A stretch of DNA of 50,183 nucleotides from Fimbriimonadia bacterium (GTDB taxonomy: Bacteria; Armatimonadota; Fimbriimonadia; Fimbriimonadales; JABRVX01), in the NCBI GenBank assembly GCA_039961735.1, contig JABRVX010000014.1:1-50183 (forward strand), read 5' to 3'. Both the position numbers and the translations under genes were made by a program. Position 1 is the first letter of the stretch. Every line of letters begins with the position of its first letter. This document shows, one piece after another, positions 17,286-43,500 of the stretch. The notes beneath the pieces are model-generated. The model ran no database searches and was not told the origin of the DNA. It saw only the letters and a program-made list of their open reading frames with translations.

Positions 17286-19157
17286 GTGGAAATCCGCGCT
17301 TCCCTACGCATCGTTCTGTATAGCGCCGCCGTCGCATGGGCCGTGGCAAATGGCCTGGATTGGCTATCGGCAGCGCGCGTCTCGGCTCTGATGGCAGCGG
17401 CCTTCGGCGCGTCGCTCGTGTTCGCACGCCGGGCGGGTGATCTGGGCTTCCTGGTCGGTGCGTGGCTGGAAGCAGTCTCGGTCGCCTTCCTCTTGTGGCT
17501 GGCACCGAGCCGGCCAGAGCTGCTGTGGGTTGTCCTTGTCCCGATGTCCGTCGCGAACCATGTTTCGTGCCGCGCGGCCTCCGTCATGGCTTTGGCGTGT
17601 GGTGGGTGCCTCGTCGCATCGGGAATCCAGGCGGGCGTATTGAGCGCAACGCACGCACCGGCTCTCGCTGCGGCCGTTGCTGGTCTCGTATCGGTGCCCT
17701 TGTTGTTCCGCAACCACGAGGTGAGGGTGCCGGAAGAACCGATCGAGCGGCAACCCGACCCCGGTCTGCTTGCCGAACTGGAAGCAACGCGAGAGTCGGA
17801 GCGCGAGGCCCGACGAGCCTACCGAGAAGTGGTCGGCCTGCACAAGCAGCTTCGCGCTGTCCACGACCAGATGGCATGCTCTTATCGGCTGATGATTGCT
17901 GCAACGGATCGGGATTCACCCGGCGAGAGAGTCCTCGATGAGGCCATAGCGATAGCAGGTGCGGGCGCTGGCACGCTGTGGCTCGTGGAGGGTGATGGGG
18001 CCCGCCTAGCGGTGCGGTCCTGCAGCGGTCCTCATGCGTTGCGCACTGACCGGATCAGCGTGGACTCGGCCGAGGACCTCGCTCGAACCGTTCGAGAGAA
18101 GGGCGCGGCATTCGCATCGTCGCTCTTCTCCGGTCCGACGGCCGGCACAGAGGAGATCGTCATTCGAGATGGCGACCGGCTGCTCGGCTTGCTGACGCTC
18201 CGGCCGCATCGCAAGCCCTTGGACCCTACCGCAATCGCGCAGTTGTCGCAATGCCTTCCCGAGGCGGTTCGCATCGTCCTGAGTCGAGAGAGAGACAAGA
18301 ACAAGCTCGCCTTCGCCGAGGCGCGCGTGCAGGCGACGGACCTCATCGCCTGCTCCGACCCTCCAAGCGGCGTGGCCGCGCGTGCCATCGAGCTAATGCG
18401 TCGCTTCTTGGACGCCGAGCACTGGTCGGTGTGGATGCTTCGTGGCAGCAAGCTGGAGATGCTCGCGGAGCGCGGGCGGTCCTTGGATCTGCCTTCGCTG
18501 ATGGACTTCGGTGCGGGCGGCGTCATAGGCTGGATCGCTTCCGACCATATCCTTTTCTCTGGCGACGCAACGGCCGACGGAACGCTTCGGGGCGAGCAGG
18601 CGATTCGTGCCAGGGTGCGATCTGTTCTCGCGATACCCCTCGAGTCGGGAGGGAAGGCCGTGGGTGCGGTATTCGCGGCGCACTCGCTTCCCGACCGGTT
18701 TCCGGCGACGGAGCGTGCGCCTGTTTTGCTCCTGGCCACACCTCTGGCGCGCGCCGTGGAACTGTCGGAGATTCGGTCGAGACCTCTTGCGTTGGTACGC
18801 CTCGATCCGAGCACAGGCATGCTAGCGTATGGCGAACTCATGGACCGGCTTTCCGAGGACCTAGCGCAGAGCCATCGCCCCGCGCTCATCCGGTTCGCTC
18901 TCGGTGCCGTCGTGGACGCAGAGCGGCGCGAGGCACTGGGGAGAGCGATTGCAGAAGCGCTCGGCCGAAGGGGCTTTGCTGCCCCCGTAGGGGAAAGGGA
19001 GTTCGTCGTCTGCCTTCCGAATGCGAGCCGCCCCCAAGCCGAAGCGATTGCACGTCTCATCGTGGGGCGCTTCGCCGACATGCGGATCGAGACTCGAGTG
19101 GCGATCGCAGGCGAAGACGGCCTTACGAGACACGGTCTCATCGAAGCCTTGGGTTGA
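17286..19157 (+). CDS. Membrane protein with two GAF-like domains and a degenerate GGDEF domain
   Basis: 623 aa. Residues 1 to about 140 contain several hydrophobic helices (membrane anchor). A charged helical stretch follows (about 150-195, coiled-coil-like), then two GAF-like modules (about 195-335 and 350-500; the second contains AGGVIGWIASD and VRSVLAIPLESGGKAVGAVF). The last part (about 505-620) follows a GGDEF pattern: RLDPSTGMLAYGELMDRL, then GEREFVVCLP at 569-578 where GGDEF is expected. The signature is lost, so c-di-GMP synthesis is unlikely and a sensory or allosteric role is more plausible. GTG start; the ribosome site is weak, so the exact start is uncertain. Confidence 0.8.
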   Translation: MEIRASLRIVLYSAAVAWAVANGLDWLSAARVSALMAAAFGASLVFARRAGDLGFLVGAWLEAVSVAFLLWLAPSRPELLWVVLVPMSVANHVSCRAASVMALACGGCLVASGIQAGVLSATHAPALAAAVAGLVSVPLLFRNHEVRVPEEPIERQPDPGLLAELEATRESEREARRAYREVVGLHKQLRAVHDQMACSYRLMIAATDRDSPGERVLDEAIAIAGAGAGTLWLVEGDGARLAVRSCSGPHALRTDRISVDSAEDLARTVREKGAAFASSLFSGPTAGTEEIVIRDGDRLLGLLTLRPHRKPLDPTAIAQLSQCLPEAVRIVLSRERDKNKLAFAEARVQATDLIACSDPPSGVAARAIELMRRFLDAEHWSVWMLRGSKLEMLAERGRSLDLPSLMDFGAGGVIGWIASDHILFSGDATADGTLRGEQAIRARVRSVLAIPLESGGKAVGAVFAAHSLPDRFPATERAPVLLLATPLARAVELSEIRSRPLALVRLDPSTGMLAYGELMDRLSEDLAQSHRPALIRFALGAVVDAERREALGRAIAEALGRRGFAAPVGEREFVVCLPNASRPQAEAIARLIVGRFADMRIETRVAIAGEDGLTRHGLIEALG

Positions 19158-19235
19158 GGCTGAGGACAGCCCAGCGAATATCACGGATTGTGCCTGAACG
19201 GGAACTCTTTCGGTACATCCTGTGCCTTTGACTAG

Positions 19236-19264
19236 TTGACATGCCACAGGACCCGTTTGATAAT
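19236..19264 (+). promoter_or_regulatory. Near-consensus promoter upstream of the TPR gene
   Basis: TTGACA (19236-19241), 17-nt spacer, GATAAT (19259-19264). This is one of the best -35/-10 pairs in the window. Transcription should start near 19271, about 360 nt ahead of the next start codon. Confidence 0.8.
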
Positions 19265-19268
19265 TGAT

Positions 19269-19631
19269 GCCGAGAGCAAAAGAATCTGTCGGACTCGGCG
19301 CGTGTCCCGCGTCCGTGTGTTTGAGTTGCCGTCTTTGGCGCTGTAGAGGAAGGGAAGAGAGCATTCGTGAGAAGGGAGCCCGCATCGGTTTTCGACCCCC
19401 GATCGGCCGAGGTGCCGGTCGTGGGGTGTTTGCTCCTGTGTCGGTACCTCGTGCCCATCCCACTGCGTCCAGGTCATACGGCTGCCTAGCCCACTGACGC
19501 CCGACGGGTGATACGAGCGATTTTGCGGCAACGTTCATCCCGCGACGCGGGGTGGCTGAGAGTGGCGACGATTGGCGGGTAGGGTCGCCCGTCCGCTACG
19601 CAAAGAGCCGACGGTCTTAGGTGATTTGCCA
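19269..19631 (+). other. Long structured 5' leader or non-coding RNA
   Basis: About 360 nt without a convincing gene lie between the promoter and the TPR start. Stems seen by eye: GCCGAG (19269-19274) with CTCGGC (19294-19299), right at the predicted 5' end; CGAGGTGCC with GGTACCTCG (about 19408-19451, one G-U pair); and GGCGAC with GTCGCC (about 19564-19589). I could not match it to RNase P RNA, tmRNA, SRP RNA or a known riboswitch. It could be a regulatory leader or an RNA gene. Confidence 0.45.
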
Positions 19632-20411
19632 ATGGCTGGACTGCATGACAACGGGCCTCGGGCCGAGGTCTCGTTGACGGGAGAGGAATACTGCACCGCG
19701 GTGCCGCTTGCGGCAGTAGCCAACGCCTTAGGTCTCCAGGATCAGGAAGGCGAGCGGGCTGCTGTTGCGCACTACCGCCAGGCCGCCGAAATCCTGCGGC
19801 TATGTGGGCGCTGGACGGAAGCCGTCGAGGCCGCGCGCAAGGCGATCGCGCTGGACCCGCACGACCCGGGCGGCCGCAATCTTCTCGTGGATATTCTCCT
19901 CGAGCGAGGCGAGTACGAGGACGTGATCCGTGAGTCCTCGTCCTGGCTCCTACTTCAACCCTACAACTCCGCTGCGCTGGAAGCGTTGGCCAAAGCCTAT
20001 TGGTACTGCGGCGACCTGGTCGCTGCGCAGCGCGTGATGAACCGTCTGCTAGAACTCAACCCATACGAACCTGCGTACCGCTATCAGCGAGGCGTGCTCC
20101 ACCAGTATCAAGGGGCGTGGGGTAGGGCGATGGAAGACTTCTTGGCTGTGCTCGAGGCCGCCCCCGGGCCGGAGCTTCGCGTTCACGCAGAGGCTGCCGC
20201 TGCCAGCCTCGAAAGGTGGCAACTGCGGCTCATCGCAATGCTGATCGTCGAGGATCCGCTGTTCCGGATCCAGTTCGATCAGGATCCGGAAGGTGCGGTG
20301 AACCGGCGCGGTTTTCGCTTGACCGAGGCGGGAACCGCGCTTCTGCGGTGCCTGCCTCACGACTCCGGCATCGAGGGCGTCGGCGAGCACACCGGTTTCC
20401 TTCGTCAATGA
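19632..20411 (+). CDS. TPR-repeat protein
   Basis: 259 aa. About four TPR units occupy residues 40-185 (AEILRLCGRWTEAVEAARKA, LLERGEYEDVIRESSSWL, YWYCGDLVAAQRVMNRLLEL, YQGAWGRAMEDFLAVLEAAP). The C-terminal 70 residues are a different, unrecognised module (VEDPLFRIQFDQDPEGAVNR). No signal peptide. The ATG at 19632 is chosen because TTAGGTGA ends 7 nt before it; an upstream TTG at 19572 lacks a ribosome site. Transcribed from the promoter at 19236 and ended by the terminator at 20434. Function unknown; the C-terminal module could be a peptide-binding part. Confidence 0.8.
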   Translation: MAGLHDNGPRAEVSLTGEEYCTAVPLAAVANALGLQDQEGERAAVAHYRQAAEILRLCGRWTEAVEAARKAIALDPHDPGGRNLLVDILLERGEYEDVIRESSSWLLLQPYNSAALEALAKAYWYCGDLVAAQRVMNRLLELNPYEPAYRYQRGVLHQYQGAWGRAMEDFLAVLEAAPGPELRVHAEAAAASLERWQLRLIAMLIVEDPLFRIQFDQDPEGAVNRRGFRLTEAGTALLRCLPHDSGIEGVGEHTGFLRQ

Positions 20412-20433
20412 GTGCGTGTGCACTCCTCTGGTA

Positions 20434-20470
20434 GGGAGCGGCCTTGGGCTGAGGCTGCTCCCTTTCTTTC
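20434..20470 (+). terminator. Rho-independent terminator after the TPR gene
   Basis: GGGAGCGGCC (20434-20443) pairs with GGCTGCTCCC (20453-20462) with one mismatch, followed by TTTCTTT. It begins 22 nt after the stop codon. Confidence 0.75.
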
Positions 20471-20486
20471 CCTTGTCAGCGATATA

Positions 20487-20861
20487 CTATGGAGCAGCGC
20501 TCCTGGCACGGCGCGCGCAAAGAATCAACGGAATCAGCAGCGCCCAGAGCGCGCTCGGCTCCGGCACCGGGCGGGAGAGCCATAGGTCATAGCCGGACTG
20601 CGTCTTCGTCAGCCACAGCACGTCACTGTGCGAGTTCGCCACGATCGACTCCCATGCGTACAGCGTCATCGGGTCCACGCTGGCTTCCCTCGTTAGGTTG
20701 TGGCTCCCGATGAACAGACCGTGATCTCGTGTACCACCGCCGATCCATACCGGAACCTCCCCAGCGAAGCCTACCGGACCCGCCCACCGCTCATCACCGA
20801 GCAGATCGTGCGTGAGGTTCGCCCTGTCCAGGAAGATGTCGGAGTTGCCGGTACCGAGCTA
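20487..20861 (-). pseudogene. C-terminal remnant of a PEP-CTERM secreted protein
   Basis: In one minus-strand frame about 124 codons follow an in-frame TAG (20859-20861). The end is a PEP-CTERM sorting signal: VPEPSALW, a hydrophobic stretch (ALLIPLILC) and a basic tail (ARRARSA). Before it are repeat-like segments with the pattern DIFLDRANLTHDLLGDERWA and GLFIGSHNLTREA, as in extracellular repeat proteins. Only the last two or so repeats survive, with no start codon, signal peptide or ribosome site, so I read it as a decayed gene. PEP-CTERM proteins are exported and processed by exosortase. Confidence 0.75.
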
Positions 20862-21200
20862 ATCCGAATTCCCGACCCTCAGCACGCGGCCCGAGCGTGA
20901 GACCATGCCCGGACGGGAGTGACTCGTTCTGCGCGTGGGCCCAAGGAGCTCCGACAGGTTCTCTCAGTTCCGATACACATCCCACACCTCGCCCGTGTTT
21001 CCCAGAGTGTCTCGCTTGGAGTACGTCACATAGTAGCGCCGAACCCCAATCTTGTCAACACAATTCGCAGCTCGACACCCCGTGCACACGTCCAGTGCCC
21101 GAGTACACAAAGTGCCCCCAGCTCCCACGCTCGAAGCTGAGCAAGCCCTGCTAAGCGGGGGACATACGGGTGCAGACGAAACCTCTATGATACGCCTAGG
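20862..21200. other. No intact gene recognised (decayed region)
   Basis: In the same minus-strand frame as the PEP-CTERM remnant, an open stretch ending at a TGA (20964-20966) reads GVRRYYVTYSKRDTLGNTGE and continues to WDVYRN. It looks protein-like but has no start and I cannot place it. It may be another fragment of the same or a neighbouring secreted-protein gene. Confidence 0.4.
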
Positions 21201-22045
21201 TCACAGATCGGGGGCGTCCGTCGCACTGCACCCGACCCACTCCACATCCTCACCCAGTCGCCCGCGCATGACCCGGATGGCCCCCGGGTTGTTGTCTATA
21301 AGGATGAACCGCCTGCCGAGTGCCGCCGCCGCAACCCCGGTCGTCCCGCTGCCAGCGAAGAAGTCCAGCACCACGTCGCCGGGGCGCGAGGACACCGAGA
21401 CGATGCGCCGTAGGATGCCGAGTGGCTTCTGGGTGGGATAGCCCGTGCGCTCCGGGCCCGAGGTGGGCACTATGGTGTGCCACCAGGTGTCGGTGGGTAG
21501 CTTGCCCAGCGCAGCCTTCCGAGCACCCACCAGGCCGGGTGCCATGTACGGGATGCGGTCGGCGGCGTCCGGATCGAAGTGGTAGAGTGCGGGGTCCTTT
21601 ACATCGTATCGTGCTTGGTCGGCCAACACCGCTTCGAGCGTCCGCCGTAATCGTATGCCCAGATGATCTCGTTCACGAAGCACTCGCGCCCGAAGATGCC
21701 GTCGAGCAGCACTTTGCAGTAGTGCACCTCTCGGTAGTCGAGATGCACGTACAGGCTGTCGGTAGGCTTGAGCAGGCGGTGTGCCTCGACGAAACGCGGC
21801 TCCAGAAGACCGAGATAGTCATCGTGGTGGTCGGAGAAGCTGATGGTGCTGACCGGTTCCGTTCGGTAGCGAGTGCCTCCGAAGCCCGCCCGCTCGCCCT
21901 GCTCCGAGCGCTGAGCCCGGAGTCTCTGCATCCGACGAACCGAGCCTGTGTTGAAGGGCGGGTCCACGTAGATCAGGTCCACGCTCTCGGGTGGAGGGAT
22001 TCGGAGGAAGGGTAGGGTGTCACCGAGGTAGACGACGTTACGCAC
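21201..22045 (-). pseudogene. Frameshifted site-specific DNA methyltransferase (N6-adenine/N4-cytosine, beta-type order)
   Basis: The first frame (22045 to 21599) holds motif IV DPPFNTG, then SLYVHLDYREVHYCKVLLD and NEIIWAYDYGGRSKR, and stops in TKHDTM-stop. The second frame resumes with VKDPALYHFDPDAADRIPYM, TGYPTQKPLGILRRIV and motif I DFFAGSGTTG. Motif IV before motif I is the beta-class order. At the junction (about 21600-21612) family members read KHDT, a few residues, then YVKDP, so a loss of 1, 4, 7 or 10 nt explains the break. Apart from that it is complete (about 280 aa). No restriction enzyme gene is adjacent, so it was probably a solitary or phage-type methylase. A sequencing error cannot be excluded. 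Confidence 0.85.
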
Positions 22046-22186
22046 TTCTCCCGGAGCATACGACCGAGGGACCTGCTAAGACTTATGGCTCACCAGGGAA
22101 CCGCACCGCAACGCGACACGTCTCTTACTCGTCTCTGTTTTGTCGTTGGCAGTGTTCCACGTTGATAACAAAATACAGGAGGTTAA

Positions 22187-22486
22187 ATGCAGAAACGCTC
22201 GTTGAACGGGCAACAGGGGCTCATCTATCCCGCTCCTTACTCGCAGGTATCGAAGCGCCGCAAGAAGCGGGGCAGCACATGGGATCTAGACAGCTTGTCG
22301 GAACTACTCGTCGACTCCAGCGAGGTTCAGGCCAAGGTTCGCATCGTTCGCAACGGGTGGGTGGTAACGGACACGGAAGGCAGCCAGTTCTACTACACCG
22401 ACCCGACCGACGCGCTCCACGCCATCGCCGTTCATCTCGAGATGCCCCCCGTGAACCCTCTGGCCGTTCTCGCGGCCACCGACTAG
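22187..22486 (+). CDS. Small protein of unknown function, paralogue A
   Basis: 99 aa. I do not recognise a family. The N-terminal third is basic (SKRRKKRG). The second half has a clear pattern: V-x-NGWVV-x-D, a Gly, QF-x-Y, then PTD-x-LHA-x-A-x-HLE-x-PP-x-NPL-x-VL. The same pattern is in the gene at 23133, so the two are paralogues. AGGAGGT lies 3-4 nt before the ATG, and a perfect terminator follows 20 nt after the stop, so this is a real, probably single-gene transcription unit. No signal peptide or membrane helix. A small alpha/beta domain is plausible. Confidence 0.8.
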   Translation: MQKRSLNGQQGLIYPAPYSQVSKRRKKRGSTWDLDSLSELLVDSSEVQAKVRIVRNGWVVTDTEGSQFYYTDPTDALHAIAVHLEMPPVNPLAVLAATD

Positions 22487-22506
22487 AGCGTTCGGACACA
22501 GTCTCT

Positions 22507-22544
22507 GGGGCCGCGGAGCCACACCGCGGCCCCTTTCGCGTTTT
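22507..22544 (+). terminator. Rho-independent terminator after small gene A
   Basis: GGGGCCGCGG (22507-22516), 7-nt loop, CCGCGGCCCC (22524-22533): a perfect 10-bp stem, then TTTCGCGTTTT. Confidence 0.85.
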
Positions 22545-22579
22545 CCCTGAACCTCCGTTCCCCGCCGGCCACCAGCCAT

Positions 22580-22605
22580 CTTTCCACCCGCTATCGGGTG
22601 GAAAG
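22580..22605. repeat. Short perfect hairpin in the repeat island
   Basis: CTTTCCACCCG, loop CTAT, CGGGTGGAAAG: an 11-bp perfect stem with no T run. It lies 36 nt past the terminator of small gene A in non-coding sequence. Confidence 0.7.
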
Positions 22606-22685
22606 CGGGGCGATGCGGACACCAGGCCCGGTTTGCCTCCATCCGAGGGCGAGGGTGGGTCGGTGACAACGAGCGCTGCGGCCGC

Positions 22686-22794
22686 CCGTCATGCTGAGCC
22701 TGTCGAAGCATGCCTTCGTGAGCCGCATGGCAGTAGTATCGTGAGTGAGGTTCGCGGCCAGTGCAGGCATGCTTCGACAGGCTCAGCATGACGG
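22686..22794. repeat. Pair of inverted 30-bp REP-like units
   Basis: Left arm 22686-22715 and right arm 22765-22794 are exact reverse complements over 30 bp, with a 49-nt spacer. Each arm is itself imperfectly palindromic (CATGCT near one end, AGCATG near the other, around GAGCCTGTCGA). The core resembles REP-type elements seen in many bacterial genomes. A head-to-head pair is the usual BIME-like layout. No transposase is adjacent. Confidence 0.85.
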
Positions 22795-22827
22795 ATACCA
22801 CTGACCCAGTCTTGAGGGCGGATGGGG

Positions 22828-22847
22828 GCCTCGGAGTTTGCCGAGGC
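22828..22847. repeat. Short perfect hairpin
   Basis: GCCTCGG, loop AGTTTG, CCGAGGC: a 7-bp perfect stem between the REP-like pair and the dispersed 81-bp-family unit. No T run. Confidence 0.5.
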
Positions 22848-22855
22848 GGCGTATT

Positions 22856-22983
22856 CCCGGCGTCCCGCCAGTTCCGATCGTGACGGGGGATGGCGAACCT
22901 AGGAGTGCCCCGGCGCGGTCCCTGGGTCCGCGGGAGGCGCAGTCGTCGCAGAGCCCGGCGGGGACGCCGGGCCAGGGCATGGC
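22856..22983. repeat. Dispersed unit related to the 81-bp tandem repeat
   Basis: The segment around 22901-22983 aligns with the 81-bp units at 1-267: GGAG then CCCCGGCGCGGTCCCTGGGT, one variable base and CGCGG, a diverged middle of similar length, then ACGC and GGGCC-x-GGGCATGG. It is partly enclosed by an inverted pair, CCCGGCGTCCCGCC (22856-22869) and GGCGGGGACGCCGGG (22957-22971, one bulge). This makes the element a dispersed non-coding repeat, amplified in tandem at the left end of the window. Confidence 0.7.
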
Positions 22984-23132
22984 GGACACCTACATCGCCG
23001 CGAAGGCGAACGCACGCCTCCGGTCCCGGGACCCGCAACCATTCGGTGGGCGCAACCGTCTAACCCTTCGCATTTCTGCAGCGAACCTTGAGAAAAACAA
23101 GCAAACGCTGCCTCAAGAAGGAGGCGAGGCCC

Positions 23133-23396
23133 ATGCCAAGCCTCGACGGTCGCCAGGTGGCGTACCCAGTTCCGTTCTCTGTCGGAAAGGGATTCGGACG
23201 CAGCTCGTGCTCGAGCCTGTTCGATGGCGACTCGTGCACCGTCACGGTCGAGGCTCGAGCGAACGGATGGGTTGTGTACGACAGCTTCGGCAACCAGTTC
23301 GTGTACGTGGAGCCTACCGACGTGTTGCATGCCGTGGCTCTGCACCTCGAGCTGCCTCCAATCAACCCGCTGAGCGTTCTGCCACAGCGCGGCTGA
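23133..23396 (+). CDS. Small protein of unknown function, paralogue B
   Basis: 87 aa. It shares the C-terminal pattern of the gene at 22187: RANGWVVYD, a Gly, NQFVYVEPTDVLHAVALHLE and then PPINPLSVL. The N-terminal parts differ; this copy has FGRSSCSSLFDGDSC with two Cys. AAGGAGG ends 8 nt before the ATG at 23133, which I prefer to an in-frame TTG at 23088. It has its own terminator at 23463. The pair lies directly upstream of the str ribosomal operon. Function unknown. Confidence 0.8.
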   Translation: MPSLDGRQVAYPVPFSVGKGFGRSSCSSLFDGDSCTVTVEARANGWVVYDSFGNQFVYVEPTDVLHAVALHLELPPINPLSVLPQRG

Positions 23397-23462
23397 AGAA
23401 GAGGCCTGACGCGGATGTTTCACGTCTCTCGGTTTCCATAGTCAACATAGGGCGGACGAGCA

Positions 23463-23491
23463 GGGAAACGGGCTGGGGCCCGTTTCCCTTT
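23463..23491 (+). terminator. Rho-independent terminator after small gene B
   Basis: GGGAAACGGGC (23463-23473), loop TGGG, GCCCGTTTCCC (23478-23488): a perfect 11-bp stem followed by TTT. It lies 66 nt after the stop codon and insulates the small gene from the str operon promoter. Confidence 0.75.
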
Positions 23492-23608
23492 GAGCCGCAG
23501 CGAGTCGAATAAGCCGGTATTCATGCGCGGATTCGCGGTAGATCGGCCCCGTCGTGGGTCTGGTGCTCGTCCCCTCCGGCGGCCCAACGCTTCTTTTCCT
23601 GGGCGTTG

Positions 23609-23638
23609 TTGACAAAATCATGGAGAGTGGGGCACAAT
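23609..23638 (+). promoter_or_regulatory. Promoter of the str (rpsL) operon
   Basis: TTGACA (23609-23614), an 18-nt spacer and CACAAT (23633-23638, 4 of 6 bases of TATAAT). The start site would be near 23645, giving a leader of about 220 nt before rpsL. A perfect hairpin (GCGGCTCGG at 23648-23656 with CCGAGCCGC at 23662-23670) lies at the 5' end of that leader. Confidence 0.65.
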
Positions 23639-23691
23639 ACCCCCTCGGCGGCTCGGCCTGGCCGAGCCGCGTGCCAGTCCGAAGCGATTGT

Positions 23692-23820
23692 AAGGAGGGC
23701 GAAGCCTTGGCCCGGGGGTTTTCCCGTGGGCCGGCAGCAAGAAGGCAAGCGACGAGTTCTGAGCCGCACGAGGCCGAAAACGACGATGAGCCCTCCGCAC
23801 GCGTGGATGAGGGCTTTTTT
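23692..23820 (+). promoter_or_regulatory. Candidate transcription attenuator in the rpsL leader
   Basis: A terminator (AGCCCTC 23789-23795, GAGGGCT 23809-23815, then TTTTT) sits 45 nt before the rpsL start, inside the operon leader. GGAGGGC at 23694-23700, part of an AAGGAGG Shine-Dalgarno, is exactly complementary to GCCCTCC at 23790-23796, the 5' arm of that terminator. The two pairings exclude each other. A further hairpin (GGCCC at 23709 with GGGCC ending at 23732) lies between. Such a layout can let ribosome binding or a ribosomal protein decide readthrough. The mechanism is inference. Confidence 0.55.
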
Positions 23821-23865
23821 GGTGTGTCGGGCAAGGAGCCCGGCCCAAGCGATATCGGAGGATGA
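23707..23865 (+). CDS. Possible 52-codon leader ORF ahead of rpsL
   Basis: A TTG at 23707 follows AAGGAGG (23692-23698) with 8-nt spacing, and the frame stays open to a TGA at 23863-23865, directly before the rpsL ATG. It runs through the terminator hairpin, so its translation would influence attenuation and couple to rpsL. The product (MARGFSRGPAARRQATSSEP at its start) resembles no known protein. It could equally be a chance open frame in GC-rich DNA. Confidence 0.3.
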   Translation: MARGFSRGPAARRQATSSEPHEAENDDEPSARVDEGFFGVSGKEPGPSDIGG

Positions 23866-24246
23866 ATGCCAACGGTTAACCAACTGGTTCGCAAGGGGCG
23901 CATGACCCCGAAAGCCAAGAGCAAGTCGCCTGCACTGCAGGAAAATCCTCAGCGCCGCGGCGTTTGCACTGTCGTGCGTACTGTCAACCCGAAGAAGCCC
24001 AACTCGGCGCTTCGGAAGGTCGCCCGCGTGCGCCTCACTAACGGTATCGAGGTCACCGCGTATATCCCGGGTATCGGCCACAACCTGCAGGAGCACAGCG
24101 TGGTTCTGGTGCGTGGTGGCCGTGTGAAGGACCTACCCGGAGTGCGCTACCACATCATCCGAGGCACTCAGCAGACTGCCGGGACTGCTAACCGCATGCG
24201 CGGCCGGAGCAAGTACGGCAGCAAGCGCCCGAAGGCGTCGTCGTAA
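23866..24246 (+). CDS. rpsL: 30S ribosomal protein S12
   Basis: 126 aa. S12 lies at the decoding centre. It shows [31 protein letters not shown] with the Lys of the streptomycin-sensitive PKKPNSA loop, [20 protein letters not shown] and PGVRYH. GGAGG ends 4 nt before the ATG. First gene of the str operon, behind the putative attenuator. Confidence 0.98.
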
Positions 24247-24260
24247 GGAGGACCTACCAC

Positions 24261-24731
24261 ATGCCAAGGAGAGCAGCGACACAGCGAAGACGAATTCCCC
24301 CGGACCCCGTGTACGGCAACGAGATGGTGCAGCGATTCATCAATCGTCTCATGCTGCGCGGCAAGAAGTCGGTTGCCGAGAAGATCACCTACACGGCACT
24401 TTCGGCTCTCGAAGAGCGAACCGGCAAGCCTGCCATCGAGGTGTTCGAGCGAGCGCTGGCGAACGTCACCCCTCAGGTCGAGGTGCGCTCCCGCCGCGTG
24501 GGTGGCCAGACCTACCAGGTCCCCGTCGAAGTGAATCCACTGCGCAAACGTTCGCTGACCCTACGGTGGCTCATCACTTTTGCACGGAAGCGTTCGGGTA
24601 AGAGCATGGTGGACAAGCTAACCGCGGAATTGCTCGACGCCTACAACAATACCGGAGCGGCGGTCAAGAAGCGGGAGGACACTCACCGCATGGCCGACGC
24701 CAACAAAGCATTCGCACACTATAAGTGGTAA
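24261..24731 (+). CDS. rpsG: 30S ribosomal protein S7
   Basis: 156 aa, normal length. S7 nucleates the 30S head and touches the E-site tRNA. Typical parts are [48 protein letters not shown] and [26 protein letters not shown] lies 10 nt before the ATG. In other bacteria S7 represses this operon; no obvious site between rpsL and rpsG was recognised. Confidence 0.98.
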
Positions 24732-24734
24732 ACC

Positions 24735-26849
24735 ATGCCTCCAGCTCCTAGCCTACAACAGACCAGGAACATCGGCATCGCCGCTCACATAGACGCCGGT
24801 AAGACGACGACTACGGAGCGGATGCTTTACTATACCGGTCGTATCCACCGCATGGGAGAGGTGCACGAAGGCGCCGCTACTATGGACTGGATGGCTCAGG
24901 AGCAGGAGCGTGGTATCACCATCACCTCCGCAGCTACTACGTGCTATTGGAACGACCACCGCATCAACATCATTGACACCCCCGGCCACGTGGACTTCAC
25001 GGTGGAGGTGGAGCGGTCTCTCAGGGTGTTGGACGGTGTGGTAGCAGTGTTTTGCGCCGTGGGTGGAGTTCAGCCTCAGTCGGAGACCGTGTGGCGACAG
25101 GCCAATCGCTACGGCGTTCCACGCATTGCCTACGTCAACAAGATGGATCGTCTGGGTGCGGACTACTTCGACGTGGTGGACAAGATCAGGGCGCGCTTGG
25201 GCTCCAACGCCGTGCCGATCCAGGTTCCTATCGGCGCCGAATCAGCCTATGTCGGTTACGTGGATTTAGTGACCCGCCAAGCCCACTACTACATGGATGA
25301 CGAAGGTTTGGAAATCGAAGTCCGCGACGTTCCCTCCGAGATGGCAGACGCAGTAGATGCGTGGCGAGAGACTCTGATCGAGGCTCTCGCGTACTTCGAC
25401 GACACGCTGATGGAGAAGTACCTCGCAGGGGAGGCGATCACGGTCCCGGAGCTAAAGGCCGTGATCCGAAAGGCCACACTGAGCTGCGACCTCGTCCCCG
25501 TCATCAGCGGCTCATCCTTTAAAAATAAGGGCGTGCAGGCGCTGTTGGACGCAGTCGTTGATTACCTCCCGAGCCCGATCGATAAGGGCGCGGTGACCGG
25601 CACGCACCCCGACACAGGAGAACCACTCGTTCGCGAGCCGGATCCTTCGGCTCCGCTGTCCGCTCTGGCATTCAAGATCGCTACGGACCCGTACGTCGGC
25701 CGTCTCACCTACGTCCGGCTCTATTCCGGCACGCTGAAAAAGGGCTCGCAAGTCGTGGTGCTCAACAAGACCATGCAGGGCCTCAAGGAGAAGTCCGAGA
25801 GGGTCGGCCGCATCCTTCACATGCATGCCAACTCTCGAGAGGACGTGGATTCTGCGGAGGCCGGTGACATTGTAGGAGTCATCGGCCTCAACAATGTTTT
25901 CACTGGCGACACGCTGTGCACCAAGTCCCATCCCATTCTTCTGGAGCGCATCGCGTTCCCCGAGCCGGTCATCAGCCTGGCCATCGAGCCCAAGTCGAAG
26001 GCCGACCAGGACAAACTCGGTGTCGCGCTGCAGAAGCTGGTCGAGGAAGACCCTACGCTGCGCGTCACGACGGACGCCGAGACGGGACAGACCATTCTCT
26101 CGGGGATGGGCGAGCTGCACCTGGACATCATCTTGGACCGTCTGAAGCGCGAGTTCAACGTTGAGCCCAATAAGGGCAAGCCTCAGGTGGCTTACAAGGA
26201 GACCGTACGCGCAGCAGCCAAGGCGGAGGGCAGATACATCCGGCAGACGGGAGGGTCCGGCCAGTTCGGGGTGTGCGTGCTCGAGGTCGGTCCGCTTGCC
26301 GAGGGCCAGGGCTTTAAGTTCGAGAACGCCACGGTGGGCGGGGTCATACCCAGGGAGTACATTCCGGCCATCGAAAAGGGCGTGCGCGAGGCGATGGAGG
26401 CCGGGGTGCTGGGCGGGTATCCCGTCGTGGACGTTCACGTAAAGCTGTTGGACGGGCAGTTCCACGAGGTGGACTCGAACGAAAACGCTTTCAAAATGGC
26501 GGGTATACTGGCTTTCCGCGAGGCCGCGAGCAGGGCTCGGCCCTGTCTCAAAGAGCCGATCATGTCGGTTGAGGTCACGACCCCGGAGGAGAATCTAGGG
26601 GACGTCATGGGTGATATCAACCGGCGGCGCGGGCGCATTGAATCGACAGAACCGGCCGCCGGCGGAGTGCACGTAATCAGGTCGCAGATCCCGCTGGCGG
26701 AAATGTTCGGGTACGTTACCGAACTCCGTTCTCTTACGCAGGGACGCGCGTCTCCTAACGTGACTCCGTCCCACTACGAAGAAGTGCCGCAGAATCTTGC
26801 GGAGGAAATCGTCAGTCGCGCACAAGGCCGACAACTCGTGCAACGCTAG
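24735..26849 (+). CDS. fusA: Elongation factor G
   Basis: 704 aa. EF-G is the GTPase that drives translocation and, with RRF, ribosome recycling. It has G1 AHIDAGKT (residues 17-24), switch I with [13 protein letters not shown]3 DTPGHVDF with the catalytic His, and G4 NKMD; all five EF-G domains are present. It begins 3 nt after rpsG with almost no ribosome site, which suggests translational coupling. This is the canonical copy, in contrast to the paralogue at 35077. Confidence 0.98.
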
Positions 26850-26908
26850 GCATGGAGGCCGCTGTGGACGACCGACAGGAAACAGAAAACTCGTGAATGG
26901 AGTGACAT

Positions 26909-28117
26909 ATGGCCAGAGCCAAGTTTGAGCGGACGAAGCCGCACTTGAATATCGGAACCATCGGCCACGTGGACCACGGGAAGACCACGCTGACCGCAGC
27001 GATCACGCGCGTGCTCAGCGAACTCAAGAGCCTGGCCAAGTACCAGAGCTTCGACCAGATCGACTCGGCCCCCGAGGAGAAGGCACGCGGCATCACCATC
27101 AACATCTATCACGCGGAGTACGAGACGGAGAACCGTCACTACGCCCACGTGGACTGTCCCGGCCACGCCGACTACATCAAAAACATGATCACCGGCGCGG
27201 CGCAGATGGACGGAGCCATCCTGGTGGTCTCGGCAGCGGATGGACCGATGCCGCAGACCCGCGAGCACATCCTGCTCGCCCGTCAGGTCGGCGTTCCCGC
27301 CATCGTCGTCTTCATGAATAAGGCGGACATGGTGGACGACCCAGAACTGCTGGACGTTGTGGAGATGGAGATCCGCGAGCTACTCTCGAAGTACGAGTTC
27401 GATGGGGACAACATCCCGATCATCCGCGGCAGCGGTCTTAAGGTCCTCGAGGCTCCAACTCTCAGCCCGGACGACCAGTGGGTCAAGGCCATCTTCGAAC
27501 TGATGCAGGCCTGCGACAGCTACATTCCGGAGCCGCAGCGCGAGATTGACAAGCCGTTCCTGATGGCCGTAGAAGATGTGTTCACCATCACGGGCCGTGG
27601 AACGGTCGCTACGGGACGCGTCGAGCGCGGCTTGCTCAAGGCTGGAGAGGAAGTGGAGATTGTCGGATTGCGTGCCGGCAAGCCGTTGAAGACGGTCTGC
27701 ACCGGCGTCGAAATGTTCCGCAAGACCCTGGACGAGGCTCGCGCAGGCGACAACGTCGGCCTCCTGCTCCGAGGTATTGACCGCAAGGACGTGTTGCGCG
27801 GCATGGTCATCGCGAAGCCTGGCTCGATCACTCCGCACACGAAGTTCGACGGCGAGGTCTACGTGTTGACCAAGGAAGAGGGCGGACGCCACACGCCGTT
27901 CGTTTCCGGATACCGGCCGCAGTTCTACTTCCGCACCACCGACGTCACGGGTACGTTGAACCTGCCCGCCGGTGTGGAGATGGTCATGCCCGGCGACAAC
28001 ATCACCATGACGGTGGAGTTGATCGAGCCTATCGCCATGGAGGCCGGGTCGCGCTTCGCTATTCGCGAGGGCGGCCGCACGGTCGGCGCCGGCCTGATTA
28101 CGAAGATATACGAGTAG
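26909..28117 (+). CDS. tuf: Elongation factor Tu
   Basis: 402 aa. EF-Tu delivers aminoacyl-tRNA to the ribosome. It has GHVDHGKTT (G1), [11 protein letters not shown] (switch I), [20 protein letters not shown] (G3) and NKAD (G4, with Ala where Cys or Val is usual). The C-terminal domain ends in [24 protein letters not shown] precedes the ATG. Only one tuf is in the window. Confidence 0.98.
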
Positions 28118-28121
28118 TGCC

Positions 28122-28153
28122 GATGGCGGCGGGGCAATCACCCCGCCGCCATC
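28122..28153 (+). promoter_or_regulatory. Perfect 13-bp stem-loop between tuf and rpsJ
   Basis: GATGGCGGCGGGG (28122-28134), loop CAATCA, CCCCGCCGCCATC (28141-28153). There is no T run after it, so it is not an intrinsic terminator. It starts 5 nt after the tuf stop and ends 15 nt before the rpsJ ATG. It could be an mRNA processing or stability site, or a regulatory structure for the S10 part. Confidence 0.7.
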
Positions 28154-28168
28154 CACGAAGGGAATCGG

Positions 28169-28477
28169 ATGCGTCGAGACAAGGTAAGAATCAAGCTGAA
28201 GGCGTACGACCACCGGGTGTTGGACCAGTCGGTGGAGAAGATCGCAGACACCGCGCGGAAGACCGGCGTGCGGGTCGCGGGTCCCATCCCGCTGCCCACC
28301 AACATCCGCAGGTTCTGCGTCATTCGAGGGCCGCATATCGATAAGGAATCGATGGAGCACTTCGAGATCCGTACGCACAAACGGTTGATAGACATTCTCG
28401 AACCGACAGCGAAAACGATCGACGCGTTGATGCGCTTGGACCTGCCTAGCGGCGTCGACATCGAGATCAAGAGCTAG
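28169..28477 (+). CDS. rpsJ: 30S ribosomal protein S10
   Basis: 102 aa. S10 (NusE) is also part of antitermination complexes. It shows [26 protein letters not shown] and the RTHKRLIDI motif, as in most bacterial S10. AAGGG precedes the ATG. First gene of the S10-type block. Confidence 0.98.
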
Positions 28478-28582
28478 TCGAAACATAAGCCTCGCAGCGA
28501 GACGGTCGGCGACCCGTCCTACCCACACGGGGAATGCCGCAGGGGACCGTCGGTAGCGATGAGGCGGAAAGGTTGGAACCCT

Positions 28583-29209
28583 ATGCTTCCAGGTCTTCTG
28601 GGGCGAAAAGTGGGAATGACGCACGTGTTCGACACGGACGGCAAGATGATACCGGTGAGTGTTATCGAAGCCGGACCGTGCCTTGTCACCCAGGTGAAGA
28701 GCCCCGAGCGCGACGGCTACTCCGCCATCCAACTCGGTTTCGGTTCGATCCCCAAGAAGCGGGTGAGAAAGCCCCAGGCTGGGCACTTCCAGAAGGCGGG
28801 AGTCGAACCGACACGGTACCTGCGGGAGTTCCGCACAGAGGACATCACCGACGTTCAGGTCGGCCAGCGTGTCGGTGTCGAGATCTTCGAGCCGGGCGAG
28901 AAGGTCCAGGTCGCTGGAACGAGTAAGGGCCGAGGCTTCGCGGGCGTCGTCAAGCGATACGGTTTTCGCGGACAGACGGCCACGCACGGCTTCATGACGC
29001 ACCGTAGGCCCTTGGCCGCGGGTGCCACGGGGCCGGCTCGCGTGTTCAAGGGGCACAAGAACCCCGGCCACATGGGCGCCGAGCGAGTGACACAGCTCGG
29101 CCTCAAAGTCGTGAGTGTAGACGTCGAGAGAAACCTGCTGTTGGTTAGCGGGTCCGTTCCCGGCGCAAACGGTGGTCTCCTGGAAGTGCACAAGGAGACG
29201 AGGAAGTAG
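28583..29209 (+). CDS. rplC: 50S ribosomal protein L3
   Basis: 208 aa. It starts MLPGLLGRKVGMTHVF, the usual L3 N terminus; I therefore prefer the ATG at 28583 over one 24 nt upstream. Other parts: SKGRGFAGVVKRYGFRGQ, TATHGFMTHR and GHKNPGHMG. The 105-nt gap after rpsJ has no gene; GACGGTC (28501-28507) can pair with GACCGTC (28545-28551). Confidence 0.97.
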   Translation: MLPGLLGRKVGMTHVFDTDGKMIPVSVIEAGPCLVTQVKSPERDGYSAIQLGFGSIPKKRVRKPQAGHFQKAGVEPTRYLREFRTEDITDVQVGQRVGVEIFEPGEKVQVAGTSKGRGFAGVVKRYGFRGQTATHGFMTHRRPLAAGATGPARVFKGHKNPGHMGAERVTQLGLKVVSVDVERNLLLVSGSVPGANGGLLEVHKETRK

Positions 29210-29211
29210 CC

Positions 29212-29889
29212 ATGCCATCGGTCAAGCTATACGACAACCAGGGAAAGGAAGCGGGTGAGCTGCAGCTTTCGGACAGCCTCTTCGGACTCCGAGAGACGCG
29301 AACGCGCACGATCGCCGGCGAGAGCGTGGAACTGTCCCGGGATCTGGTTGCCAACCTGCACCAGGCCGTTGTGGCCGAAGAGGCCAACCGCAGGCAGGGC
29401 ACGCACAAGACGAAGGGCCGCAGCGAGGTCAGTGGCGGCGGGCGTAAGCCGTACCGTCAGAAGAAGACCGGTCGATCCCGCCAGGGCAGTATCCGTTCTC
29501 CTCTGTGGAAGGGTGGCGGTGTCGTCTTCGGACCGACGCCCCGCTCGTACCGACAGCGGATCAACCGCAAGGCGAGAAGGCTTGCCATCCAGTCCGCCCT
29601 CGGATACAAGATCGCTGAGGGAGCACTCGTCGCGGTGGACGGTGTTCGCTTCGAGCGAATCAAAACGAGAGACGCCGTGGACTTCCTCAAAGCTCATGGG
29701 TGCGAGGGTGTTCGGTCACTGGTTCTGCTACCCGAGCACGACGAGACGGCGCTGCGCTGCTTCCGGAACATTCCGAACGTCGATCTCCGCTATGTACCCG
29801 CAGTGTCGGCGCGCGACGTGATCGTGGCGCATCGGATCGTTGCGGACCGGGCCGCGCTGCAGAAGCTCGAGGAGTTGTGGTTGAAGTGA
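29212..29889 (+). CDS. rplD: 50S ribosomal protein L4
   Basis: 225 aa. L4 lines the exit tunnel through its extended loop, seen here as KGRSEVSGGGRKPYRQKKTG followed by RSRQGSIRSPLWKGGG and VFGPTPRSY. The ATG follows GAGGAAG and lies 2 nt after rplC. The TGA overlaps the rplW start by 4 nt. L4 represses the S10 operon in E. coli; nothing here shows whether that holds. Confidence 0.97.
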   Translation: MPSVKLYDNQGKEAGELQLSDSLFGLRETRTRTIAGESVELSRDLVANLHQAVVAEEANRRQGTHKTKGRSEVSGGGRKPYRQKKTGRSRQGSIRSPLWKGGGVVFGPTPRSYRQRINRKARRLAIQSALGYKIAEGALVAVDGVRFERIKTRDAVDFLKAHGCEGVRSLVLLPEHDETALRCFRNIPNVDLRYVPAVSARDVIVAHRIVADRAALQKLEELWLK

Positions 29890-30191
29890 AGAGCCCATAC
29901 GAGATCATCCTGCTGCCGCGAATCACCGAGCGCGCACTTCGGCTGGCCGAGATCGGCAAGTACACGTTCATCGTTGCCGAAGACGCGACGAAGCCTGACA
30001 TCGCGCGGGCTATCGAGCAGCACTACGCAAAAAGCAAGGACAAGGTAAAGGTCGTGGCCGTGAACACTTCTCATGTTCGCGGTCGCATCAAGGGCCGCAG
30101 CCGTTTCCGAAACCCCGGCCATACCCCTAAGTGGAAGAAGGCCGTGGTCACGCTTGCACCAGGGCAGAGACTGCCCGACTTCGGAGTGTAA
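29886..30191 (+). CDS. rplW: 50S ribosomal protein L23
   Basis: 101 aa. L23 sits at the tunnel exit and docks SRP and trigger factor. It begins [20 protein letters not shown] and contains [19 protein letters not shown] and [20 protein letters not shown] use the GTG at 29886, which overlaps the rplD stop (GTGA); GAGGAG lies 11 nt before it. A GTG 9 nt upstream is possible. Confidence 0.95.
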
Positions 30192-30193
30192 TC

Positions 30194-31024
30194 ATGCCAA
30201 TACGAGAACACAAACCAACGTCGCCAGGCAGAAGGTTTCTGAAGTCCTCGACCAACGAGGAGATCACGAAGCAGAAGCCGGAGAAGACACTCACCGAGTA
30301 CCGCAAGCGACAGGGTGGACGAAACAACTCCGGCCGCATCACGAGCCGGTTCCGCGGAGGCGGGAAGAAGCGTAGGTATCGTCTGATTGACTTCAAGCGG
30401 GACAAGTTCGAGATCCCCGGCAAGGTCGCGGCCATCGAGTACGACCCGAACCGCACGTGTCGCATCGCCCTGATCCACTACGCCGATGGGGAGAAGCGGT
30501 ACATCCTCGCACCGGATGGCCTGGGGGTCGGGGCATCCATCGTGAGCTCTACCACCGCCGACATCCAACCCGGGAATGCGCTGCAGCTCAGGGACATCCC
30601 GCTCGGAACCCAGATCCACAACATCGAACTGACCCCTGGGAAGGGCGGTCAGATCGTTCGCTCCGCCGGGACCTCGGCCCAGGTGATGGCGAAGGAGGGC
30701 GATTACGTCACGCTCCGCCTTCCGTCCGGTGAGATGCGAAGAGTGAGGATGGAGTGTCGGGCGACCGTCGGTGTCGTCGGCAACGCCGAGCACGAGAACG
30801 AGGCGTACGGAAAAGCCGGCAGGGTGCGCGCGAAGGGACGCAAACCGCATGTCCGCGGCGTCGTGATGAGCCCACGAGACCATCCACACGGTGGTGGTGA
30901 GGCCAAGAGCCCTGTGGGACGCAAGAAGGGTCCTGTGGACCGTTGGGGCAACGCCGCCAAGGGCAAGATTACGCGCAGCAACAAGCGCACGGATAAGTTT
31001 ATCGTCCGCCGGAGGAACCGCTGA
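30194..31024 (+). CDS. rplB: 50S ribosomal protein L2
   Basis: 276 aa. L2 is needed for peptidyl transferase assembly. It starts [15 protein letters not shown] and contains [36 protein letters not shown], and near the C terminus [19 protein letters not shown] with the conserved His of the PHGGG loop. It follows rplW by 2 nt, and its TGA shares a base with the rpsS ATG. Confidence 0.98.
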
Positions 31025-31305
31025 TGGCTAGGTCGGTAAAGAAGGGACCGTTCATAGACGGGCACCTTCAGAAGAAGATTGACGCGATGAACAGCGCGGG
31101 CGAGAAACGGATCATCAAGACTTGGTCGCGTCGCAGCACCGTGATGCCGGAGATGGTCGGGCACACGATAGCCGTACACGACGGTCGGAAGCACGTGCCC
31201 GTGTTTGTGACGGAGAACATGGTCGGCCACAAGTTGGGTGAGTTCGCCCCGACGCGCTTGTTCCGAGGCCACGCGGGTTCTGAGAAGACCCATAGGGTGC
31301 GATAG
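31024..31305 (+). CDS. rpsS: 30S ribosomal protein S19
   Basis: 93 aa. S19 sits in the 30S head near S13. It starts [19 protein letters not shown] and contains [20 protein letters not shown] and [22 protein letters not shown] lies in the end of rplB. Confidence 0.98.
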
Positions 31306-31307
31306 AG

Positions 31308-31886
31308 ATGGAAGTTAGAGCGGTTGTCAAGTCGAGGAGAGTGCCGCCGAGGAAAGCTCGGCTCGTCGTGGACCAGGTCCGCGGCATGAGGGCTGTGAAG
31401 GCGGCGCAGTTGCTCCAGTTCGTGCCGAACAAGTCTGCGCACCTTGTTCGCAAACTCATCCGTTCGGCGGCTGCGAACGCCGTCGAGAACCATAGCATGA
31501 ACGAAGAGGACCTGGTGATCACTCGGGCCTTCGTGGACGAGGGCGCCAGGCTCAAGCGCATTCAGGCACGCGCGATGGGTCGCGCGAACCGCATCCTCAA
31601 ACGCACTTGCCACATTACGGTGGTGGTCGAGAGCATTCCCGAGGAGCCGCGACCGAAGCGTCAGGTGCGCAAGACAGAGCCGGGGCCGAAGCCCGGCAAG
31701 CCGGAGAAGGCGAAGGCAGAATCGGTCGTGGCCGAGCCCGCAGCTACCGTCTCGGAGCCGGAGTCGCAGGTGGCGGAAGAATCGGTCGTTGCCACTCCAA
31801 AGACAGAGGAGCCAGAAGCGGCAGGGCCGGTCACTGAAGAGGGCGTGGAGCCCGCCGAGGGCGAGGCAGAAGGGAAGCAGGAGTAG
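31308..31886 (+). CDS. rplV: 50S ribosomal protein L22 with acidic C-terminal tail
   Basis: 192 aa. The first 113 or so residues are a normal L22 (VKSRRVPPRKARLVVDQVRG, AAANAVENHSMNEEDLVI, RAMGRANRILKRTCHITVVV). The remaining 80 are a low-complexity tail of Pro, Glu, Ala, Lys and Val (EPRPKRQVRKTEPGPKPGKP, then strongly acidic, ending EGEAEGKQE). L22 normally ends near the conserved domain, so the tail would protrude from the ribosome surface. The ribosome site is weak; coupled to rpsS, 2 nt away. Confidence 0.96.
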   Translation: MEVRAVVKSRRVPPRKARLVVDQVRGMRAVKAAQLLQFVPNKSAHLVRKLIRSAAANAVENHSMNEEDLVITRAFVDEGARLKRIQARAMGRANRILKRTCHITVVVESIPEEPRPKRQVRKTEPGPKPGKPEKAKAESVVAEPAATVSEPESQVAEESVVATPKTEEPEAAGPVTEEGVEPAEGEAEGKQE

Positions 31887-31890
31887 AGCT

Positions 31891-32646
31891 TTGGGTCAAA
31901 AGGTCAATCCAATTGGTTTCCGGCTGGGCGTCATCCGGACGTGGGACAGCAAGTGGTTCTTCAACAAGAAGGTTTACCCGGAGATGGTGTATGAGGATCA
32001 CCTGATCCGCACAATGTTGAAGCGCCGCTGGGCGAATGCGAGCATCTCGCGCGTCGAGATCGAGCGCCCCGCTGATCTCGTGAAGGTGACGATCCATACC
32101 GCTCGGCCCGGCGCCGTCATCGGGCGTGGCGGGAAGGGCATCGAAGAGATCAACGCCGCCGTCGAGCGCACCGTGCACAAGCGGCACAAAGACGCACAGG
32201 TGTACATCAACGTTGCCGAGGTGCAGAAGCCGGAGATGGACGCCCAGCTCGTAGCGGAGGGCATTGCGAGCCAGATCGAGAAGCGCGTCTCGCACCGACG
32301 AGCCATGCGCCAGGCCGTGATGCGAGCAACTCGCCAAGGCGTGAGGGGGATTAAGGTGATCTGTGCGGGCCGTCTGGGTGGCTCGGAAATGGCCCGGCGC
32401 GAGATCGAGAAGGATGGCAAGGTGCCGCTGCACACCCTTCGGGCGGATGTGGACTACGGATACTGTGTCGCTCGGACGATCTATGGCGCGGTGGGTTGCC
32501 GCGTGTGGATCTACCGCGGCGAGGTGTTTCAGGAGAGGGCGCGGCGCCGGGACGACTTGCTGGACGCACCGGGTCACGGCTCGGGCGACCGAGAGCGGCG
32601 GCCTCGGCGGCCGCGCAGAACTATTGCGGAGCCGGCGGGAGAGTAA
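31891..32646 (+). CDS. rpsC: 30S ribosomal protein S3
   Basis: 251 aa. S3 is at the mRNA entry. It starts at the TTG 31891 (GQKVNPIGFRLGVIRTWDSK), with AGGAG 7 nt before it. The KH domain is seen in PGAVIGRGGKGIEEI (GRGG for the GxxG loop), followed by GIKVICAGRLGGSEMARRE. The Arg/Asp-rich C-terminal end (RRDDLLDAPGHGSGDRERRP) is variable. Confidence 0.97.
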   Translation: MGQKVNPIGFRLGVIRTWDSKWFFNKKVYPEMVYEDHLIRTMLKRRWANASISRVEIERPADLVKVTIHTARPGAVIGRGGKGIEEINAAVERTVHKRHKDAQVYINVAEVQKPEMDAQLVAEGIASQIEKRVSHRRAMRQAVMRATRQGVRGIKVICAGRLGGSEMARREIEKDGKVPLHTLRADVDYGYCVARTIYGAVGCRVWIYRGEVFQERARRRDDLLDAPGHGSGDRERRPRRPRRTIAEPAGE

Positions 32647-32649
32647 GCC

Positions 32650-33231
32650 ATGTTGATGCCTAAGCGTGTAAAGCATCGCAAACAACACAGAGGCCGAATG
32701 ACGGGTAAGGCCTCGGGTGGTAACAAGATTGACTTTGGTGAGTTTGGCCTGCAGGCCCTCCAGCCTTGCTGGCTGACCAACCGTCAGATCGAGGCTGCCC
32801 GTATCGCCATCACCCGCTACATCCGGCGCGGTGGAAAGGTGTGGATCCGGGTCTTCCCGGATAAGCCGTTTACCAAGAAGCCGGCGGAGACGCGCATGGG
32901 CTCCGGCAAGGGTTCGCCCGAGGGGTGGGTCGCCGTGGTCAAGCCCGGACGCATGCTGTTCGAGCTGCGCGGCGTCAGTGAGGAAGTGGCGAAGGAAGCC
33001 GTGAGAAGGGCCATTCACAAGCTGCCGATCCGGGCGCGCTTCGTCACCCGAAGGGACTTCGAGCATCTCTATACAGAGAAGGACCGCGCGGCGGATCTGC
33101 AGCAGCAAAATGCGTTCGAGGCCACACTGACATCAGGGGCGCTCGACGTCGTGGAACCCGAGGAGCCGGCCGTTAGCACCGAGGAAGCGACGCCCACAAC
33201 GATGGAGGAGAGTGGCGATGAAGGGGCTTAG
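32650..33231 (+). CDS. rplP: 50S ribosomal protein L16 with acidic C-terminal tail
   Basis: 193 aa. The core ([60 protein letters not shown]) is a standard L16, which helps position A-site tRNA. Normal length is about 140; here about 50 residues follow, rich in Glu, Thr and Ala ([20 protein letters not shown]). The 3' end of the gene encodes this tail and also contains the rpmC ribosome site. Confidence 0.96.
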
Positions 33232-33427
33232 AAGCTCGGAGCTTCGCGAGAAGAGTACCGAAGACCTCGTGGAGGAGCTGGAGAAGGAGCGCGAGGCCGT
33301 GTACAACGTGCGACGCCAGATCATCTTCGGCCAGGTGAAGGACTTCAAGGCGATCTCCGTACACCGCAAGAACGTGGCCCGAATCATGACCCTGCTGTCA
33401 CAGCGTCAGCGGGAGGGTAAGGAATGA
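33218..33427 (+). CDS. rpmC: 50S ribosomal protein L29
   Basis: 69 aa. L29 borders the exit tunnel with L23. It starts [20 protein letters not shown] and contains the helical [20 protein letters not shown]. The ATG at 33218 follows GGAGGAG with 7-nt spacing and overlaps rplP by 14 nt; a GTG at 33212 is too close to that ribosome site. The stop overlaps rpsQ (ATGA). Confidence 0.95.
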
Positions 33428-33687
33428 GCGAGATGCTGGAGCGAGGAACCCGCAAGATTCGCGAGGGCACCGTCGTCAGCAACAAGATGCAGAAGACGGT
33501 CGTGGTGCAGGTCGAGCGCAGAGTCAAGCACCCGCTATACGGCAAGATCATCCGCCGTACGGGCCGGTTCAAGGCGCACGACGAGCAGGCGTGTGATGTG
33601 GGGGACTTCGTGGAGATCGTGGAGTGCCGGCCGCTGAGCAAGGAGAAGCGCTGGCGCGTGAGCAGGATTCTTGAGAAAGTGAAGTAG
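33424..33687 (+). CDS. rpsQ: 30S ribosomal protein S17
   Basis: 87 aa. It contains [39 protein letters not shown] and [20 protein letters not shown], the usual S17 OB fold. It overlaps rpmC by 4 nt and has GGGAGGG ahead of its start. Confidence 0.97.
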
Positions 33688-33693
33688 GCCGCG

Positions 33694-34421: not shown

Positions 34422-34440
34422 GCGGCGGAGTGAACACAGA

Positions 34441-35061: not shown

Positions 35062-35076
35062 GAGAGAACTGGATTC

Positions 35077-37143: not shown

Positions 37144-37186
37144 CCGCCCGTTTCGTGGGTGGTCCTGCCGCGCGACTGGAGGAACG

Positions 37187-37372: not shown

Positions 37373-37381
37373 GAGAACAGG

Positions 37382-37777: not shown

Positions 37778-37790
37778 GGAGCTTGTTTCG

Positions 37791-38351: not shown

Positions 38352-38364
38352 TAGGTTGTAAAGC

Positions 38365-38724: not shown

Positions 38725-38733
38725 GGAGCAAGT

Positions 38734-42617: not shown

Positions 42618-42646
42618 GCCAGAGCGCATGAACCCTATGGAGGAAT

Positions 42647-42883: not shown

Positions 42884-42909
42884 GTCCGAATGGGGTTCAC
42901 CCGGTCGGG

Positions 42910-43494: not shown

Positions 43495-43500
43495 GGCACC

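Follow-up and report, generated by a model that had tools for sequence, protein, structure and literature searches.

A probable transcription attenuator in the rpsL leader of the str operon of a Fimbriimonadia bacterium and its relatives

What decides whether transcription proceeds into the str operon if an intrinsic terminator stands upstream of its first gene? This question is raised by a locus from a Fimbriimonadia bacterium, located in a stretch of 50,183 nt which was analysed as a whole and is called the window in the following. Coordinates are window positions on the plus strand, and all sequence elements named here were found at the places given (Table 1).

The rpsL leader and the operon downstream

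A preliminary description of this DNA had reported a promoter, a Shine-Dalgarno-like motif and a terminator whose 5' arm is complementary to this motif, and each of these was recovered at exactly the described position. In the promoter scan the -35 element TTGACA (23609–23614) is followed, after a spacer of 18 nt, by CACAAT at 23633–23638. The terminator is formed by the hairpin AGCCCTC-N13-GAGGGCT (23789–23815) and six T residues, ends 45 nt before the rpsL start codon and lies, as in an attenuator, between the promoter and the first gene. It is an unusual element, since only two sites in the 3.2-Mb genome match the pattern CCTC-N6..30-GAGG-N-Y-TTTTT. GGAGGGC (23694–23700) within the motif is the exact complement of 7 bases of the terminator arm. 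Furthermore, the nascent antiterminator and the terminator differ by only about 0.8 kcal/mol in the window, which fits what a switch needs. Taken alone, the complementarity in this one leader is not beyond chance (P about 0.08–0.18): a perfect complement of at least 7 bases arises in 18% of dinucleotide shuffles of the window leader, and its best duplex energy corresponds to p = 0.08. When leaders were tested singly by shuffling, the complementarity to the terminator arm reached p < 0.05 in only 14 out of 110. Therefore, the argument rests on comparison and not on the single case.

The leader is located in front of a ribosomal protein operon, the position in which a ribosomal protein leader is found. 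Downstream of tuf, genes for S10, L3, L4, L16, SecY and the alpha subunit of RNA polymerase follow in the same orientation as far as about position 45588. No plus-strand promoter match of at least 10 out of 12 bases was listed after 23638 in the scans of 18000–34000 and 34000–50183. Thus, genes beyond the four of str may also depend on this leader.

Several other elements were seen around this locus. Just 5' of the rpsL promoter there is a pair of paralogous plus-strand ORFs (22187–22486 and 23088–23396) of about 100 aa each, which share 45% identity over 91 aa and have no Pfam match. At 22686–22794 a pair of 41-nt inverted repeats, 88% complementary and containing GTCATGCTGAGC..GTCGAAGCATGC, resembles an intergenic palindromic repeat. 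Two overlapping ORFs on the minus strand (21201–22045) look, judged by their motifs, like a single DNA methyltransferase split by a frameshift. Between tuf and rpsJ, at 28124–28153, there is a strong G+C-rich inverted repeat, GGCGGCGGGG-CAATCA-CCCCGCCGCC, which has no U-tract. The leader of rplJ in the same genome (L145, positions 1320–1500) likewise has a promoter-like stretch and a GGGAGCCCTGC..GCGGGGCTCCC hairpin before the gene, for which the upstream sequence CAGGGGCTCCC could compete.

Table 1. Features of the rpsL leader and the str operon (window positions)
Feature	Position	Strand	Basis
Sigma-70-like promoter, TTGACA-18-CACAAT	23609–23638	+	10/12 consensus bases
5' hairpin P1 of the leader RNA, 10 bp	23648–23670	+	predicted fold
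Shine-Dalgarno-like motif AAGGAGGGC, putative 5' strand of antiterminator	23692–23700	+	motif enrichment and pairing specificity
52-codon open frame, TTG 23707 to TGA 23863–23865; judged not a gene	23707–23865	+	not conserved, unremarkable by chance
Intrinsic terminator, stem 23789–23795/23809–23815, U-tract 23815–23820	23789–23820	+	sequence; co-varying helix
Putative 3' strand of antiterminator, GCCCTCC within terminator 5' arm	23790–23796	+	exact complement of GGAGGGC
GGAGG, ribosome-binding site of rpsL	23857–23861	+	sequence
rpsL (ribosomal protein S12), first gene of the operon	23866–24246	+	Pfam PF00164
rpsG (ribosomal protein S7), 14 nt past rpsL	24261–24731	+	Pfam PF00177
fusA (EF-G)	24735–26849	+	
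tuf (EF-Tu)	26909–28117	+	

Comparison of the leaders across the order and the phylum

The search for RpsL succeeded in 57 out of 61 genomes from this order and in 144 out of 151 from the phylum, and the DNA upstream was read; the relatives used for comparison belong to families other than that of the window. The layout is the same in practically every leader of the order: the promoter is followed by a 5' hairpin and a purine motif, then by a hairpin region that varies, and finally by the terminator with its U-tract and rpsL. The promoter layout was matched by script, some of the matches being weaker, and a 5' hairpin of differing sequence is predicted by folding in nearly all relatives. The terminator is present upstream of rpsL in essentially all members of the order and in the majority of the leaders sampled from the phylum; outside the order it was placed in 60 further leaders, and in 15 none was found by the criteria of the script. 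For the phylum, leaders with a terminator placed before rpsL number 110. The sequence AGGRGG occurs 40–135 nt 5' of the terminator in 59 of them, versus 9.1 expected. Among 77 rpsL loci from distant phyla, which served as the outgroup, 38 have a terminator-like site before rpsL and only two an AGGRGG at the right distance.

If the pairing is real, each motif should fit the terminator arm of its own genome better than that of another genome. For hand-picked sites the mean duplex energy was -22.46 in the order versus -17.47 with permuted partners (z = -8.6, n = 29), and -22.59 versus -19.13 in the other families (z = -6.9, n = 47); permutation within families gave 1/20000 for this latter set. 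Some of the hand-picked sites had been chosen with the pairing in view, hence the test was repeated with an automatic rule which takes the GGRGG nearest to the terminator. The z-scores were then -4.9 (n = 28) and -5.8 (n = 40), with 0/20000 permutations in each separate set. In a control with the automatic sites, the 30-nt flanks on either side of the motif showed no preference for their own partner.

Covariation of the terminator helix was not reached by any of 500 shuffles (17 leaders). For the antiterminator, counted in fixed columns over 17 leaders of other families, the signal is modest, with 76.6% of the cells paired versus 74.2% after shuffling (10/500), and the count in a second register gave no support. 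This is partly due to a shift of the register between families, and for the same reason the duplex permutation test was preferred to this count. RNAalifold found no consensus structure in the sequence alignment of the order.

The pairing is convincing only through this comparison with relatives, which supports the conservation and covariation, across order and phylum, of a terminator and a mutually exclusive antiterminator containing the GGAGG element. What had been proposed from one leader thus recurs for both pairings in its relatives. The comparison therefore lends support to an alternative pairing that excludes the terminator, as is characteristic of an attenuator. We are confident, if short of certain, that the leader is a genuine attenuator switch, and very likely this switch controls the entry into rpsL-rpsG-fusA-tuf. 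An unregulated partial terminator, merely setting the basal level of the operon, would agree with the similar stability of terminator and antiterminator and with the fact that no ligand was found, but about 200 nt of leader, with a motif that is conserved and pairs, exceed what a fixed terminator needs; we regard this reading as improbable.

The Shine-Dalgarno-like motif and leader reading frames

According to the preliminary description, readthrough into the str operon may be controlled by ribosome binding at the leader, where a frame of 52 codons follows the motif, or by a ribosomal protein. The antiterminator/terminator switch contained in this proposal is supported by the comparison reported above, but translation of a leader ORF is not. 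The frame does exist, but we judge it not to be a gene: in 55% of shuffles one frame stays free of stops for at least 52 codons, and no counterpart was found in the relatives. In the 84 leaders outside family f2, start codons are even depleted 4–13 nt 3' of the motif (18 out of 84 versus 32.6 expected), which rules out the motif as the Shine-Dalgarno sequence of a general leader ORF.

The sister family f2, which belongs to this order, has such an ORF. It comprises 27–29 codons, starts 12–14 nt 3' of GGAGG in 11 out of 11 leaders carrying the GGAGGTTC element (L039–L048 and L051, all upstream of rpsL) and ends 22–27 nt 5' of the terminator. Its pN/pS ratio is 0.60 in frame, versus 1.35 and 1.51 in the other two. 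The typical sequence of the arginine/lysine-rich peptide is MNRxxxERxxARGxRxxKRRRKRRCxxx; the f2 leaders L049 and L050 are without it. These values indicate that a real, conserved leader peptide of about 28 aa is under purifying selection in frame in this one sister family only. Hence, the idea of a leader ORF holds for 11 out of 11 f2 genomes, but not for the window and most relatives, in which no conserved ORF starting behind a Shine-Dalgarno sequence was found. Attenuation by a leader peptide, with a ribosome on a short ORF after GGAGG deciding the folding, would account for the f2 data, but it conflicts with the depletion of start codons elsewhere and with a window frame that crosses the terminator and is neither conserved nor unusual by chance. 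It appears very unlikely.

If not translation, what preserves the motif? In one genus of the order (L033–L038) GGAGG has been lost and the pairing with the terminator is retained (CACGG/CCGUG); thus, the pairing and not the Shine-Dalgarno identity is constant there. The middle base of AGGRGG behaves differently depending on its kind: A is unpaired in 20 out of 40 leaders having it, and G is paired in 17 out of 17. Therefore, the antiterminator may not be all that preserves this sequence, and a contact of the 30S subunit or of a protein with the motif is possible. One such explanation would be that free 30S subunits are sensed. The anti-Shine-Dalgarno end of the 16S rRNA would bind the leader AGGRGG without a start codon and remove the antiterminator, so that excess subunits would halt the synthesis of S12, S7, EF-G and EF-Tu. 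The over-representation of AGGRGG speaks for this explanation, as do the frequently unpaired A, the ability of both A and G to pair with CCUCC and the usual 3' end of the 16S rRNA, GGATCACCTCC. However, most leaders lack a following start codon, in which case 30S binding would be weak, and some lineages have lost the Shine-Dalgarno-like sequence (L033–L038, L023, L026). On balance we hold it to be unlikely. Still somewhat less credit is due to the bolder version, that the phylum limits its ribosome biogenesis by counting free 30S subunits directly, a Shine-Dalgarno sequence without start codon doubling as antiterminator and bound 30S leading to termination.

Proposed mechanism and known systems

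We consider it moderately likely that the leader attenuates transcription of the str operon under feedback from one of the ribosomal proteins encoded there when this protein is in excess, with S7 as the first choice. Transcription would start near 23645, the P1 hairpin being made first, followed by AAGGAGGGC. Upon its emergence GCCCTCC could pair with GGAGGGC, and the resulting antiterminator would permit readthrough into rpsL-rpsG-fusA-tuf and probably further into the S10-spc-alpha genes. With the motif occupied, the 5' arm of the terminator would pair with its own 3' arm and transcription would stop near 23820. In most leaders the terminator is predicted to be favoured by a few kcal/mol and the antiterminator to form first. 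The alternative pairings and their conservation were shown by sequence comparison; from these we infer switching in the cell, a direction in which a ligand on the motif side would favour termination, and the existence of the ligand.

S7 is favoured because it is the known regulator of the str operon in E. coli and because the gap between rpsL and rpsG (-1 to 22 nt in 26 members of the order) is too short to hold the E. coli site. With such a gap, control by S7, if any, would have to be exerted elsewhere. Sequence comparison with the 16S rRNA, by sharing of 8–10-mers and by local alignment, gave no localised peak of 16S-like sequence in the leaders; S7 as the putative ligand is therefore a guess, and a tentative one. 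The sequence AGGGGGCGA was considered as a likeness of the 3' strand of 16S helix 18, the site of S12, and was rejected, as the 16S rRNA varies there between genomes and the leader does not follow.

In the window the str operon, with its genes for S12, S7, EF-G and EF-Tu, continues into S10-spc-alpha, so that a single switch may govern a large part of the cell's translation capacity. A leader with a defined antiterminator throughout a phylum makes the regulation of str testable, and a Shine-Dalgarno-like sequence kept without a start codon makes direct counting of subunits a possibility. Regulation of the str operon by S7 has been called unstudied outside the phylum of E. coli, except for a likely cyanobacterial case (PMC10931766). 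This phylum and rpsG go unmentioned in a survey of 20 new ribosomal leaders (PMC7247131), and no Rfam match at gathering score, rpsL leaders included, was found in the window.

The preliminary description knew of no str-operon attenuator of this kind. Such attenuators had, however, been predicted in other phyla (Merino and Yanofsky; Naville and Gautheret 2010, PMC2965389). As a kind, the str attenuator is already known; the phylum-wide variant is apparently new, no description of it having been found in the literature searched. The rpsL leaders of Listeria, Xanthomonas, Pseudomonas and Rickettsia (PMC2965389) likewise have an intrinsic terminator and a possible antiterminator before rpsL, and S7 was suggested as ligand there as it is here. 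No feature common to those groups was reported there, whereas here one purine motif and one layout recur across a phylum which was not treated in that study. The Bacillus subtilis rplJL leader, subject to attenuation by L10(L12)4 (PMC10931766), also combines an antiterminator with a terminator before a ribosomal protein operon, and its feedback ends transcription. It differs in having an anti-antiterminator with a kink-turn, an element not noticed in the present leader, and in operon and ligand. The E. coli str operon (PMC10931766) is the same operon, and its regulator S7 is our first guess for the ligand. In E. coli, however, S7 blocks translation from a site between rpsL and rpsG, whereas in the window this gap measures 14 nt and the proposed switch is the terminator in front of rpsL.
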